Shown: in pieces, positions 38,419 to 42,778 of the stretch
Layout of the letters: each line of letters opens with the position of its first letter
Numbering within the stretch: the first letter of the stretch is position 1
Assembly (NCBI GenBank): GCA_008933705.1
Contig: WBUN01000011.1
Location: forward strand, 1-64,000
Direction of reading: 5' to 3'
DNA: 64,000 bases
From: Hyphomicrobiaceae bacterium
Lineage (GTDB): Bacteria; Pseudomonadota; Alphaproteobacteria; Rhizobiales; Hyphomicrobiaceae
Program-made: the position numbers and the translations under genes
The notes under the pieces: generated by a model
What the model saw: only the letters and a program-made list of their open reading frames with translations
The model's database searches: none
Told to the model about the DNA's origin: nothing

Positions 38419-39186
38419 TCACGGCGGAACGAGGCGGGCGTAGCCCTGCTCCACGGCTTCGGCGAGCAGCTGCTTGTAGCCGGCATGCTGCGCATGAGCG
38501 GGGCCGATCTCGCCGAGGCTCACGCCGATGAAATCCTCCTGCTTCACATAGACGATCGGCGCGCTGACCGGCATGAACAGGGCGCGCTGCTTGTTGAGCG
38601 TGGTGATGAGCCCTCGCATCTGCCCGGCGATGTCGAGCTGGGAGACCATGACCATGCGCATGGCGCCCTTCGTGAGCGAAACCAGGTGGATGTACATCGA
38701 TGAAGCGGGGATGTAGAGGCGGCCGCGGTGCAGGAACGGCTTGTCGGGGCGGTCGCGCTCCTGGAACACCAGGCTTGGCCACTCGTCGTCCCAGATGATG
38801 TCGGTGCGATAGGCCATGACTCCATCAGGCGAGGAAAACGAAGGGCGCACCGTCAGATAGCTGCCGAGGTAGTGATCGACGGCATCGCGCGAGTAGGCCC
38901 CCATGTAGACCGGCGCAACGCGGCCGTGGGCACCATTGCTCTCGGGCGCATCCCTGAGCTCGCCGTGCCCTTCCCAGGCGCCCTTCACCTTGTCGAAGTT
39001 GAGCCCGAGCACCATGCACACATCGAACAAGGTCTGATCGCGCACCGAGCGGCCGGACAGGAGGTTCTGGATGGTCTTCTCGTGGCAGTCGGCGGCGTCC
39101 GCAAGCTCGGCCTGCGTCATCTTCTTCTCGATCATCGCCGTCTTGATGAGCGCGAGAGCAGCCGCGTGCTTGCCGTCCATGCGCAT
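38419..39186 (-). CDS. HTH-domain protein of unknown function
   Basis: A 255-residue protein. Residues about 20-60 form a Cro/CI-type helix-turn-helix (MTQAELADAADCHEKTIQNLLSG). The remaining about 180 residues are an uncharacterised soluble domain with many aromatic and acidic residues (VMAYRTDIIWDDEWPSLVFQE). I know no function for the C-terminal domain. It lies 167 nt downstream of the 371-aa gene on the same strand and may be part of the same regulator-led cluster. The track's 620-aa ORF is a read-through; ATGs at 39186 and 39180 are both possible. Confidence 0.6.
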   Translation of the reverse strand: MRMDGKHAAALALIKTAMIEKKMTQAELADAADCHEKTIQNLLSGRSVRDQTLFDVCMVLGLNFDKVKGAWEGHGELRDAPESNGAHGRVAPVYMGAYSRDAVDHYLGSYLTVRPSFSSPDGVMAYRTDIIWDDEWPSLVFQERDRPDKPFLHRGRLYIPASSMYIHLVSLTKGAMRMVMVSQLDIAGQMRGLITTLNKQRALFMPVSAPIVYVKQEDFIGVSLGEIGPAHAQHAGYKQLLAEAVEQGYARLVPP

Positions 39187-39334
39187 GGCTGCGTGGCCTC
39201 GTCCTGCTTCCCCCTCGCTCCGGCGAGCGTAACGGAAAGTGCGCCTTCCTGTCATCCCGCAAGAGCAACAGGATGCGGCGCAGACGAGCCCCCGCGCTGG
39301 CCTTAGATGAGCCGCGCGGAGGCTCGCCCGGGGG

Positions 39335-39353
39335 AGGCCGCCTAGGACGGCCT
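39335..39353 (-). terminator. weak hairpin after the 371-aa gene
   Basis: On the minus strand AGGCCG-TCCTAGG-CGGCCT follows immediately after the TAA stop. There is no U-run, so it may only be a partial terminator or an mRNA stabiliser. Confidence 0.3.
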
Positions 39354-40469
39354 TTAGGCCTGGCCCTCGCGAACAGGGCGCGCGTGCAAGCGAGGCGGCT
39401 TGCCGGGCCCGAGCCCGATCACGGTGCCAGGCGTAACCTCGCCATCGGGGCAGAGCACCTGCTCGCCCTTCTCCTCGGCCAGCTCGGCCACGCTCTTGAC
39501 GAGCGTCAGCGCCGGCGCTCCGGCGAGCGTCTCGAGGTCGGCCGCGTAGTAGTCGAACCACGGCAGGCCCGCCTTGGTGTAGTCGGCAGCGGTCGGCGGC
39601 CGCGTCGTCGGGACTTCGCCGGTGATGTCGCGCCACTGCACGGCGTCGATCAGCGTCACGAAGCAGCGGCTCGAGACCGACTGGTCCCAGGCGTCGATGC
39701 CGTGAGGATCGGCATAGATCTGCTGCGTCATGCGACCTCCGGCGGCGAGCCCCATCGCCCTGGGCGGTGCGGCGCAGGGGGCTGCCGCACCGGGTCTCGG
39801 GACGCTGCGCCAGGAAGCCTCCCAGGCGAAGCCGGCTGACCCCAACGCCCGCGCACGCTGCTCTTCCTCGCGCCGGCGCAGCTCCTCGCGCTGACGCAGT
39901 TCCTCGCGCTGACGCAGGATCTGCTGATAGCGCTCGCGCTTCATGGGGTAAGCGACGATCTGAAGCCCGCCATGCTCCGGCTTGCCGGTGATCTGCTCCT
40001 CGACCGAATACCCCGCGCCGAGCGGCATGGCGACGAACTGGCGCACCGCATCCTTGGCCACGCAGAAGCCGTCGAGCCAGGGCTGCTCGGGGACAACCAC
40101 GTAGTCGTTCTGCGATGGGTCCAGCTCCATCTTCCACGGCTTGCCGCTGACCGCGTTGATCTTGCCGGTCGCGATCTTGATGGCGAAGGGGTAGCCGTCG
40201 TTTGCCGCTCTGCCGCGAAAGGCGATCCACATCGCTTCGGCCTGGTACAGCGGCATCATCACACCGCCGCGCTGCCGCCAATCCTGCGGAATCCGGTCGG
40301 CGAAGTCTTCGATATGTCTCAGCGGGAAGGAGCCGAGCCCGGGTGGCAGCGGATAGTGCTTGCCGTCGTCGGGAATGCGCAGTGTCCTTTGGAAGTTGAT
40401 CTCCGTCTTGGCGTGTTCATGAACCTCGGGGAACCGAAACGTCAGGCTTTCGCCTTCGAGTGTGATCAT
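39354..40469 (-). CDS. conserved protein of unknown function (371 aa)
   Basis: A 371-residue soluble protein. The N-terminal about 190 residues are compact and conserved-looking (INFQRTLRIPDDGKHYPLPPG, GGVMMPLYQAEAMW, PFAIKIATGKINAVSG, VPEQPWLDGFCV). A charged Glu/Arg repeat helix (REELRQREELRRREE) leads to a second region with MTQQIYADPHGIDAWDQ and GLPWFDYY. I recall similar uncharacterised proteins scattered over distant bacterial phyla but know no function. It follows the XRE repressor gene by 32 nt, so both are almost certainly one transcript under the palindromic operator. The start ATG at 40469 has AGGGT upstream. Confidence 0.6.
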   Translation of the reverse strand: MITLEGESLTFRFPEVHEHAKTEINFQRTLRIPDDGKHYPLPPGLGSFPLRHIEDFADRIPQDWRQRGGVMMPLYQAEAMWIAFRGRAANDGYPFAIKIATGKINAVSGKPWKMELDPSQNDYVVVPEQPWLDGFCVAKDAVRQFVAMPLGAGYSVEEQITGKPEHGGLQIVAYPMKRERYQQILRQREELRQREELRRREEEQRARALGSAGFAWEASWRSVPRPGAAAPCAAPPRAMGLAAGGRMTQQIYADPHGIDAWDQSVSSRCFVTLIDAVQWRDITGEVPTTRPPTAADYTKAGLPWFDYYAADLETLAGAPALTLVKSVAELAEEKGEQVLCPDGEVTPGTVIGLGPGKPPRLHARPVREGQA

Positions 40470-40501
40470 TACCCTACCTACGAGTTGACTTCCCCACACT
40501 G

Positions 40502-40855
40502 TCACCAGTTTCCGTCGCGCACCTCCCTGACAACCTTGACGATGGCCTGGTCCGGAGCGTCCCGGAGCTGACGGATCAGCTCCGCGAACTGCTTCGGCCG
40601 GCGCAGGATGATCGCCTGCAGATCGCTCGACACCTTGCCCGCCAGCGCGAGCAGCATGTCGGGGTCCTCACCGAGATCCCCCGCCAGCCTGACGATGGTC
40701 GCCTCCGATGGTGGCGGCACGAGGCCGCGCTCGACCTTGCTCAGGTATGCGGGCTCCACATCGATGCGCTGCGCCACCTGACGAAGGCTGTAGCGCATGT
40801 CCTTTTCGGCGAGCGCTGTGCGCACCGTGCGGACGTAATCACCGAAACCGGCCAT
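40502..40855 (-). CDS. XRE-family transcriptional regulator
   Basis: A 117-residue regulator with an N-terminal Cro/CI helix-turn-helix (SLRQVAQRIDVEPAYLSKVERG, about residues 23-44) and a conserved PPSEATIVRLAGDLGEDPDMLLALAG segment. A C-terminal helix follows. It is the first gene of an apparent operon. A perfect palindrome lies eight bases upstream of its start codon, the usual place for an autoregulatory operator. It probably represses itself and the downstream 371-aa gene. Confidence 0.8.
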   Translation of the reverse strand: MAGFGDYVRTVRTALAEKDMRYSLRQVAQRIDVEPAYLSKVERGLVPPPSEATIVRLAGDLGEDPDMLLALAGKVSSDLQAIILRRPKQFAELIRQLRDAPDQAIVKVVREVRDGNW

Positions 40856-40862
40856 GTGGCCT

Positions 40863-40880
40863 GTGTACTACATAGTACAC
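40863..40880. promoter_or_regulatory. perfect palindromic operator GTGTACTA-CA-TAGTACAC
   Basis: An 8-2-8 perfect inverted repeat immediately upstream of the XRE gene start (ATG at 40855). Its position next to the ribosome-binding site means a bound repressor would block transcription start or early elongation. It is the most likely binding site of the adjacent XRE protein. Confidence 0.7.
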
Positions 40881-41002
40881 GTTCCAGTCAAGCGGCGATT
40901 TCAACGGGCGATTCAGGGGGACGATTTCGCGCGGCTTCCAGCCCGCACCGATGATCGGGAGATCGTCAGTCCGCTCGTCCGCAGCGCCTGCGGGCTGCAA
41001 AC

Positions 41003-41737
41003 TCAGGGATGTCCCATGCCGACCGCACCCCAAAGCAGGACAAGGCCGGCAACGATGAGCAGCGCATCCATCAGCAGACGAAACTGGCTGGCATCGAGCC
41101 GGATCACAAATCCCTTCGCCACCCACGAGCCCAGCATCACCGAGGAGCCGATGATCAGGCCCTTGGCCGCCGTCTCCCAGGGGAGCGCATCGAGGCGCTG
41201 GAACACAATGGTCTTGGTGAGCCCGATGGCCACCGACCCCAGGGCCTCGGTCGACAGGTAGGCGCCCTTCACCAGCCCGTAGGCGATGAAGAAAGGCGTG
41301 TTGATCGGCCCGGTGGAGGCGACGAGCCCTGAAAGGAAGCCGATCACCGCCCCGACAATGAGCAGATGCCAGGCCCTGATCCTCAGGCCCCGCGCCATCA
41401 GCCAGCGCCGCACCGGCACCATCACCATGAACAGGACGCCGAGCACGCCCTCCACCACACGCGGGTTCAGCGTCAGCAGCGTGCGCGCGCCCAGCGCCGC
41501 GCCCGGCACGGCGGTCGCGCAGTAGAATGCGTTGGCGCGCCAATCGACCTCGCGCCACCACACGGCAACGCGCGAGATGTTGGCGAGCAGGGCGGCGATG
41601 GCCATGATGGGCACGGCTTCCAGCGGACCGAACGCCAGCATCAGCGCCGGCATCAGCATGATCGAGGAGCCGAAACCGACGATGCCGCCGATGGTGCCGG
41701 CAGCCAGGCCCAAGCCGAGGATGGCGATCCAGATCAT
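41003..41737 (-). CDS. TauE/SafE-family sulfite exporter-like membrane protein
   Basis: A 244-residue membrane protein with about eight hydrophobic segments. Glycine-rich family signatures begin the two repeat halves: GTIGGIVGFGSSIMLMPAL near residue 14 and GAVIGFLSGLVASTGPINTPFF near 128. TauE/SafE proteins export sulfite, sulfoacetate or other organic anions. No sulfur-metabolism genes are adjacent, so the substrate is unknown. It is slightly shorter than average but complete. Confidence 0.85.
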   Translation of the reverse strand: MIWIAILGLGLAAGTIGGIVGFGSSIMLMPALMLAFGPLEAVPIMAIAALLANISRVAVWWREVDWRANAFYCATAVPGAALGARTLLTLNPRVVEGVLGVLFMVMVPVRRWLMARGLRIRAWHLLIVGAVIGFLSGLVASTGPINTPFFIAYGLVKGAYLSTEALGSVAIGLTKTIVFQRLDALPWETAAKGLIIGSSVMLGSWVAKGFVIRLDASQFRLLMDALLIVAGLVLLWGAVGMGHP

Positions 41738-41949
41738 GCCCGCTCCTGCCGCTGTCTCGGCAACGCCCTCGCGCCCGCCGAATGCGACAGGACGATGACA
41801 CCCGCGCCTGCCTACAGCGTGCCGCCGCGGACGGGAAGCTTGTCATTGGGAAAGACGCATTGGCGCGTGGCGGCGGGGGCATGCGGGGGCAGCGCTCACG
41901 GACAGCGCGGGCGCGGCGGAGGGCCGGGCGTGCAACGTCCCTTTCCGCC

Positions 41950-42326
41950 CCGAGCTTGTCGAAGGACAGCCCGAGGGCAGCCGCGTCCCGGCCGTGGTTC
42001 GACAGGCTCACCACGGAGAGGCGCTGCGCGTGCCCGCTCGGTCTCACCGCCCGCTCCGCCCTGAGCTTGTCGAAGGGCGGCCCGCGTCCCGGCCGTGGTT
42101 CGACAGGCTCACCACCGAGAGGCGTTGCACGTATTCCCTCGGTTTCACACCCCGCTCCGCCCTGAGCTCGTCGAAGGGCAGCCCGCGTCCCGGCCGTGGT
42201 TCGACAGGCTCACCACGGAGAGGCGTTGCACGTATTCCCTCGGTTTCACACCCCGCTCCGCCCTGAGCTCGTCGAAGGGCGGCCCGCGTCCCGGCCGTGG
42301 TTCGACAGGCTCACCACGGAGGACCG
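41950..42326. repeat. tandem array of 101-bp units with inverted-repeat halves
   Basis: At least three near-identical units have the same CTGAGC(T/C)(T/C)GTCGAAGG motif at 42061, 42162 and 42263, giving an exact 101-bp period. A diverged unit precedes them at about 41950. Each unit pairs CTGAGCTTGTCGAAGG with GTGGTTCGACAGGCTCACCAC about 25 bp later, which is roughly its inverse, so each unit can fold into a long hairpin. These are extragenic palindromic elements of a type common in alphaproteobacteria, expanded here in tandem. Confidence 0.85.
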
Positions 42327-42343
42327 TTCCAACCGAAAAGCGC

Positions 42344-42766
42344 AGGTGTGCGCGCCGTTGGAATGGCGCGCGCTGCCGCGGGGGTGATCTGCGGCGGACG
42401 TGGCCCGCGCGGCCCGGTGACCTGGTTACCGCGGAGGATCATCGCACAGCCCGCTCCGCCCTGAGCTTGTCGAAGGGCGGCCCACGTCCCGGCCCTGGTT
42501 CGACAGGCTCACCACGGAGAGGTGTTCGAGCCGGAAAGGGCACCTCACGTGACGTCATTCCCGCGCAGGCGGGAACCCAGATCACAGATCAGCAGAGGTG
42601 TGCGCGCCGTTGGAATGGCGCGCGCAGCCGCCGGGGTGCTCTGCGGCGGACGTGGCCCGCGCGGCCCGGTGACCTGGTTACCGCGGAGGATCATCGCACA
42701 GCCCACTCCGCCCTGAGCTTGTCGAAGGGCGGCCACGCCGGCCGTGGTTCGACAGGCTCACCACGA
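42344..42766. repeat. 252-bp spaced direct duplication containing the same palindromic element
   Basis: AGGTGTGCGCGCCGTTGGAA starts at 42344 and again at 42596. The two copies stay nearly identical for about 170 bp, including CGGTGACCTGGTTACCGCGG and one copy each of the CTGAGCTTGTCGAAGG/TTCGACAGGCTCACC element (42461 and 42713). The spacing of exactly 252 bp at both landmarks shows a segmental duplication. Confidence 0.85.
42554..42580. repeat. short inverted repeat element TTCCCGCGCAGGCGGGAA
   Basis: GTCATTCCCGCGCAGGCGGGAACCC contains TTCCCGC/GCGGGAA arms. It resembles the widespread short palindromic elements found near genes in many proteobacteria. Confidence 0.5.
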
Positions 42767-42778
42767 CGGAAAACCCGT

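Follow-up and report, generated by a model that had tools for sequence, protein, structure and literature searches.

Gene organization and insertion site

We studied two adjacent minus-strand genes in a 64,000-nt stretch of a Hyphomicrobiaceae contig (hereafter the window). The first (40502..40855) encodes an XRE-family repressor of 117 aa, assigned from its Pfam HTH_31 match (1.3e-9) and its co-occurrence with the second; HTH_3 also scored above cut-off. The second (39354..40469) encodes a 371-aa protein of a family without a name, which we call Q, and begins 32 nt after the first. On one side of the pair lies the gene of a 255-aa HTH regulator (38419..39186, minus strand) and on the other a transporter gene (41737..41003). 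The elements described in an earlier note on this DNA, namely a palindrome before the XRE start, the 32-nt gap and the succession of the 371-aa and the 255-aa HTH proteins, were all found in the sequence, the palindrome being spaced 7 nt from the start codon.

That note had grouped the three genes into one cluster, a grouping that we rejected because the HTH gene was never found near Q elsewhere and is a resident gene in the relatives, where it lies beside the transporter gene. In genomes of the same genus these two genes are adjacent and the module is missing, i.e., the site is empty; in relatives such as L187 and L188 the HTH gene starts about 77-147 bp past the transporter gene. Since the two adjoin each other there, the XRE-Q segment of about 1.8 kb (39240..41002, ends approximate) is, as read from these gene orders, an insertion between two resident genes. 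Two other relatives carry a quinone oxidoreductase-like gene (assigned by eye) in or beside the same gap. The 255-aa HTH gene occurred in almost every genome sampled from the same genus and the same family, is vertically inherited and has a conserved upstream region of its own; no homologue of it was detected near Q in about 115 other Q loci.

Two observations concern the surroundings of the segment. Near-core in its family, the 255-aa HTH gene encodes a protein with an unnamed C-terminal domain; remote relatives of it adjoin class GN sortase genes on plasmids of Rhizobium, Phyllobacterium and Novosphingobium. Beside the module, positions 41939-42770 of the window hold an intergenic repeat element with six copies each of CCGGCCGTGGTTCGACAGGCTCACCACGG and CCGCCCTGAGCTTGTCGAAGGGC, partly in tandem with a spacing of 101 bp.

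The palindrome GTGTACTACATAGTACAC (40863..40880), located 7 nt upstream of the XRE ATG, consists of two perfect 8-nt arms around a CA centre (GTGTACTA-CA-TAGTACAC) and is a putative operator, as judged from its sequence and conservation. Of 89 related loci, 65 have a GTGTASTANNTASTACAC site with up to three mismatches next to the start of XRE, 21 of them a perfect one, as against 0.1 expected in shuffled sequence, so that the palindrome is not a product of chance. The consensus is missing from most of the jumbo-phage XREs, which are more diverged. In many loci TTGAC is positioned about 14-20 nt upstream of the site and the ATG follows directly; the predicted operator may thus overlap the likely -10 region of the promoter and the transcript may be nearly leaderless. 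From the conserved site we infer that the module carries its own autoregulation, with repression of both XRE and Q. The palindrome was the sole match in the 5.3-Mb genome when up to two mismatches were allowed, which left no candidate regulon in the host, and since the operator is single, the module seems to have no regulatory target other than itself. The idea of a self-regulated accessory module put forward in the earlier note gained support as far as XRE and Q are concerned, but did not extend to the 255-aa HTH gene.

Pairing, distribution and genomic neighbourhoods

Relatives of Q were drawn from plasmids and phages, from GTDB genomes (the best 80 of at least 362 loci) and from IMG/VR. The same XRE was located directly upstream of Q in 72 of these best 80 GTDB loci. 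In 201 Chloroflexota genomes all 16 XRE matches were followed by Q, and in Planctomycetota all nine Q matches obtained with an XRE-less cyanobacterial Q as the query had an XRE. Distances between XREs and between Qs were correlated (Mantel r 0.74, 87 pairs; none of 2000 permutations as high). No gene family other than XRE recurred widely beside Q, and in several phages and plasmids no XRE was detected beside Q. The trio was thus never found together elsewhere, but its first two genes almost always were. On these comparisons XRE and Q are a real, conserved and self-contained two-gene mobile module, for which we found no earlier description. In an acidobacterial bin (L060, 4654-7005) tandem duplicate Q genes were observed behind a single XRE.

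The pair was found in at least 13 named phyla: Pseudomonadota, Chloroflexota, Gemmatimonadota, Planctomycetota, Acidobacteriota, Krumholzibacteriota, Kiritimatiellota, Nitrospinota, Bacillota, Thermodesulfobacteriota, Nitrospirota, Lentisphaerota and Actinomycetota (a Euzebya plasmid), many loci being metagenome bins in which single phylum assignments are uncertain. Isolates carrying it include Sedimenticola, Pseudohalioglobus, Tolumonas, Stieleria, Aeoliella and Euzebya. The frequency per phylum sample was about 1% of the Pseudomonadota, 4% of the Planctomycetota and 8% of the Chloroflexota genomes, and Q was usually present in single copy. The Q tree mixes phyla (e.g., Nitrospira, Pseudohalioglobus and a Desulfobacterales bin have close Qs), in agreement with the horizontal spread among distant phyla suggested by the earlier note. 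The module was found on plasmids, in integrative elements with TraG and on phage contigs of up to 619 kb; a terminase large subunit was present in 10 of the 15 viral records tested, including records of 230-619 kb with XRE and Q. As far as distribution and sequence relationships tell, the module has spread as a unit, together with its own operator, among distant phyla, integrative elements and giant phages.

The neighbours of the module were compared with PADLOC models at E<=1e-30. Matching models (families) numbered 48 for 109 directly flanking genes and 0 for 109 control genes taken from elsewhere in the same genomes. Some of them are housekeeping look-alikes, probably including a RecQ-like helicase (L036) and also a methylase that by eye resembles CcrM (L096), which leaves about 6-9 true defence neighbours among the 109. 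In Sedimenticola, BrxA lies next to the module, and a complete BREX locus starts there and is transcribed away from XRE (BrxA, BrxB, a 1166-aa protein in the BrxC position, a PglX-like methylase, PglZ and BrxL). IetA and its subtilase partner (IetAS) are beside the module in Nitrospira, and AbiEi, PD-Lambda-5 and HEC-06/DUF262 were the other individually checked defence neighbours. Many module loci sit among metabolic genes in ordinary surroundings. In the integrative elements of Sedimenticola, Pseudohalioglobus, Nitrospira and L085 one side is constant (TraG and a small membrane protein), and the cargo varies where the other side is readable. The proximity to defence genes that the earlier note had proposed to check was thus confirmed in comparison with the controls, and on these sequence matches the enrichment is real but moderate.

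The Q protein and the shared C-terminal tail

Q comprises a beta-rich N-terminal half (residues 1-176), a long helix with a disordered linker (178-237) and a C-terminal part with the conserved motif MGLAAGG-x-M-x-Q (238-350). It matched no family in Pfam, NCBIfam, PADLOC (where it matched none of the described defence-system models) or PHROGs, in agreement with the earlier note's statement that no known system name fits, and it had no relative in the PDB by sequence. An AlphaFold2 model built with 60 homologues was confident (pLDDT 88, pTM 0.85), and neither this model nor that of a homologue resembled a PDB fold. Invariant or near-invariant residues include T29, R31, E78, W131, D133, Q144, Q159, Q249, D254 and W261, with no conserved His or Cys among them. 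Neither HExxH nor any other protease motif was found, no catalytic class was suggested by the conserved residues, and no known toxin family or fold was matched in Pfam, NCBIfam, PADLOC or the PDB fold comparison.

A Foldseek search of a viral library (BFVD) with the Q model retrieved giant-virus proteins at about 21-22% identity: two of Harvfovirus (A0A3G5A0P2, E 1e-20; A0A3G5A5W8, E 2e-19) and one of Hyperionvirus (A0A3G5A6D8, E 3e-7) that is annotated with a ubiquitin-like domain. These proteins share a Q-like fold, yet they are larger and uncharacterised. Such structural relatives, one of them with a ubiquitin-like domain, hint at a wider, possibly eukaryotic, family. Two further scans of IMG/VR revealed no recognisable giant-virus locus with a Q homologue. 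Apparent Q fusion proteins in the phage loci L102, L104 and L118 were discarded; their extensions lack Pfam domains and seem to arise where the mechanical ORF finder read through GC-rich sequence.

A feature missed by the earlier note is a short C-terminal tail common to XRE and Q. The XRE of the window ends in ...VREVRDGNW, its tail V-R-D-G-N-W and stop codon corresponding to 40502..40525 (minus strand). The strict form V-R-[DE]-G-x-[WF]-COOH was present in 78 of 88 XREs, with G115 and W117 invariant (1.00) in 87 homologues. The Q of the window has a degenerate version, P-V-R-E-G-Q-A and stop (39354..39377, minus strand), in which VREG is kept and the final aromatic residue is lost, as it is in some other XRE-paired Qs. 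Q ends in strict V-R-[DE]-G-x-[WF] in 46 of 119 loci, and many others, PVREGQA of the window included, are VRE-like or shortened. The strict motif was found in none of 1144 other ORFs of the same loci, and only 4 of 8173 ORFs ended in [DEN]Gx[WF] once the XRE/Q pair was set aside. Where XRE had lost the tail Arg, Q had lost it in three of four cases, as against 6 of 76 otherwise (Fisher p 0.004); these numbers are small and uncorrected for relatedness, and two of the six are parsing slips whose correction would strengthen the association. Several Qs without a detected nearby XRE keep the tail, and tailless Qs without XRE were found in large T4-like phages, Kovacikia and Bradyrhizobium.

The occurrence of the same short tail on both partners suggests that XRE and Q would bind through one common docking site. 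In the monomer model of a full-tail Q homologue the tail was disordered, which is what in-trans binding of such a peptide would predict. Docking of the tail in cis on Q was not supported: it formed a weak, low-confidence strand in the Q of the window and was disordered in the full-tail homologue. Literature searches returned nothing on the tail motif or on the XRE-Q pair.

Relation to known systems and candidate function

The repressors most closely related to our XRE (35-46% identity, E about 1e-22 to 1e-17) are sister XREs paired with ImmA/IrrE-type proteases. These XRE-ImmA/IrrE (COG2856) modules, e.g., ICEBs1 ImmR/ImmA and DdrO/IrrE, resemble the XRE-Q module in gene order, with the repressor encoded first, in mobility and in repressor size (ImmR has 127 aa, PMC8960796, and XRE 117 aa). 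ImmR loses its activity when ImmA cleaves it (PMC8960796), and lists of toxin-antitoxin-like mobile modules have long included XRE-COG2856 pairs (PMC2701414). The second gene of such pairs, however, encodes a COG2856 metallopeptidase with HExxH, to which Q is unrelated, and the tail V-R-[DE]-G-x-W of our module's XRE is missing from the ImmA-paired sister XREs. Repressor kinship and layout make the module a counterpart of the XRE-ImmA/IrrE modules with Q in the place of the protease; it belongs to the XRE-partner kind, as a variant in which the partner comes from a new family. Since Q, without protease motifs, stands in for an ImmA-type protease, control by binding would be the simplest guess.

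Type II toxin-antitoxin systems with XRE antitoxins (HigBA, HipBA, MqsRA, COG5654-COG5642) are likewise two-gene mobile operons, and the gene order and conserved predicted operator of the module would fit such an autoregulated operon. They differ in that Q is larger, belongs to no toxin family and lacks paralogous expansions. BrxR, which has a WYL domain (PMC9122601), and CapH are also repressors next to, and sometimes divergent from, BREX or other defence operons. In PADLOC our XRE had weak regulator matches only, CapH among them (E 1.3e-4); BrxR regulates a neighbouring system, whereas the module's XRE has one genomic operator and comes with Q.

We propose, with a probability of roughly 45%, that the module is a mobile pair of XRE repressor and effector Q in which Q is capped through tail mimicry until a trigger arrives. 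XRE dimers would bind the predicted operator, which overlaps the likely -10 and abuts the start codon, and would hold both XRE and Q low. With a C terminus that is a copy of Q's own disordered tail, XRE would dock onto Q at a site that would normally take the tail of a neighbouring Q molecule, and would thereby cap or sequester Q in an antitoxin-like manner. The contact between XRE and Q would be broken, or XRE consumed, by a trigger, with phage infection or another invading element as the likeliest candidates; expression would then rise, and Q would self-associate and act. Killing or arrest of the cell, a block of the phage and protection of a cell component are candidate outcomes. Against this reading stand the housekeeping look-alikes among the PADLOC matches, the many loci in metabolic surroundings, the Qs that keep the tail with no XRE detected nearby and the paired Qs that have lost its final aromatic residue; Q, moreover, presents no catalytic signature or known fold pointing to toxin activity.

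Alternatively, the docking pocket could be on XRE. Q would then sense the signal and pull XRE off the operator with its tail, being mainly a sensor and derepressor whose output is the level of Q. Sister XREs paired with proteases that inactivate their partner repressors (ICEBs1 ImmR/ImmA, PMC8960796), a gene order identical to that of XRE-ImmA pairs and the lack of toxin-like features in Q favour such an anti-repressor, but we consider it unlikely: with a sole operator in the genome, derepression would alter nothing beyond the module, Qs without a nearby XRE keep the tail, and Q has no protease motif. A classical type II toxin-antitoxin pair, spread by addiction, in which free Q would kill or arrest the cell and a labile XRE would serve as antitoxin as well as autorepressor, also seems improbable. 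Q is large, resembles no toxin family, is usually present in one copy per genome, unlike many toxin-antitoxin families, and in several phages and plasmids has been kept with no XRE detected beside it, which is unexpected of a free toxin; these points stand against a regulator-first two-gene layout with predicted autoregulation and a small conserved repressor, a sporadic distribution on plasmids and integrative elements, and the commonness of XRE antitoxins in such pairs (PMC2701414).

The tail itself might serve as a docking tag or degron that a host protease or chaperone recognises, giving equal turnover of XRE and Q without direct contact between them. It is short, C-terminal, disordered and ends in an aromatic carboxylate, and Qs without a nearby XRE retain it; yet 13 phyla and the phages would all have to share a single host reader, the tail is a peculiarity of the XRE-Q pair, and its Arg covaries between the two proteins, all of which make this a very unlikely explanation. 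Finally, Q could be a stress protein of metabolic or housekeeping type with a regulator of its own, and its proximity to defence genes would then reflect only that integrative elements collect both. The ordinary surroundings of most loci would agree with this, and the giant-virus structural relatives and the tailless homologues beside replication or recombination genes in large phages would fit a general function. A sporadic presence in about 1-8% of genomes per phylum sample and the excess of defence proteins among the neighbours over same-genome control genes speak against it, and we regard it as distinctly unlikely.

Returning to a capped effector, a role of the module in anti-phage defence or a stress response is probable, and the defence or stress idea of the earlier note is plausible, with support gained here that falls short of proof. 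Its own repressor and operator and its BREX, IetAS and Abi neighbours make the module a candidate defence system. Although Q is a well-conserved family, found in at least 13 phyla as well as on plasmids, in integrative elements and in phages, and with structural relatives in giant viruses, the general family libraries that we searched contain no entry for it. The common tail offers a specific handle on repressor-effector communication and can be used to look for further pairs of this kind. A broader version, which we hold tentatively and find rather doubtful, is that Q founds a new effector family, with a fold absent from the PDB and common to bacteria, jumbo phages and giant viruses, and that tail mimicry couples transcriptional and direct effector control in a portable defence device; if tail mimicry is true, one short motif would achieve both.

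Tailless Q homologues were also observed in settings of their own. In large phages (L014, L117, L119, L120 and L123) a shorter tailless homologue occupies a fixed place, adjoining recombination nuclease (gp46/gp47-like) and ribonucleotide reductase-like genes (assigned by eye). XRE-less tailless homologues on the Bradyrhizobium barranii plasmid pBb1S5b (L012, 5953-12810) and on a Kovacikia minuta plasmid (L016, 5947-8040) are each followed by an astacin/M12-like metallopeptidase; on pBb1S5b caspase-family and trypsin-like proteins come next, an arrangement reminiscent of a proteolytic conflict cluster.
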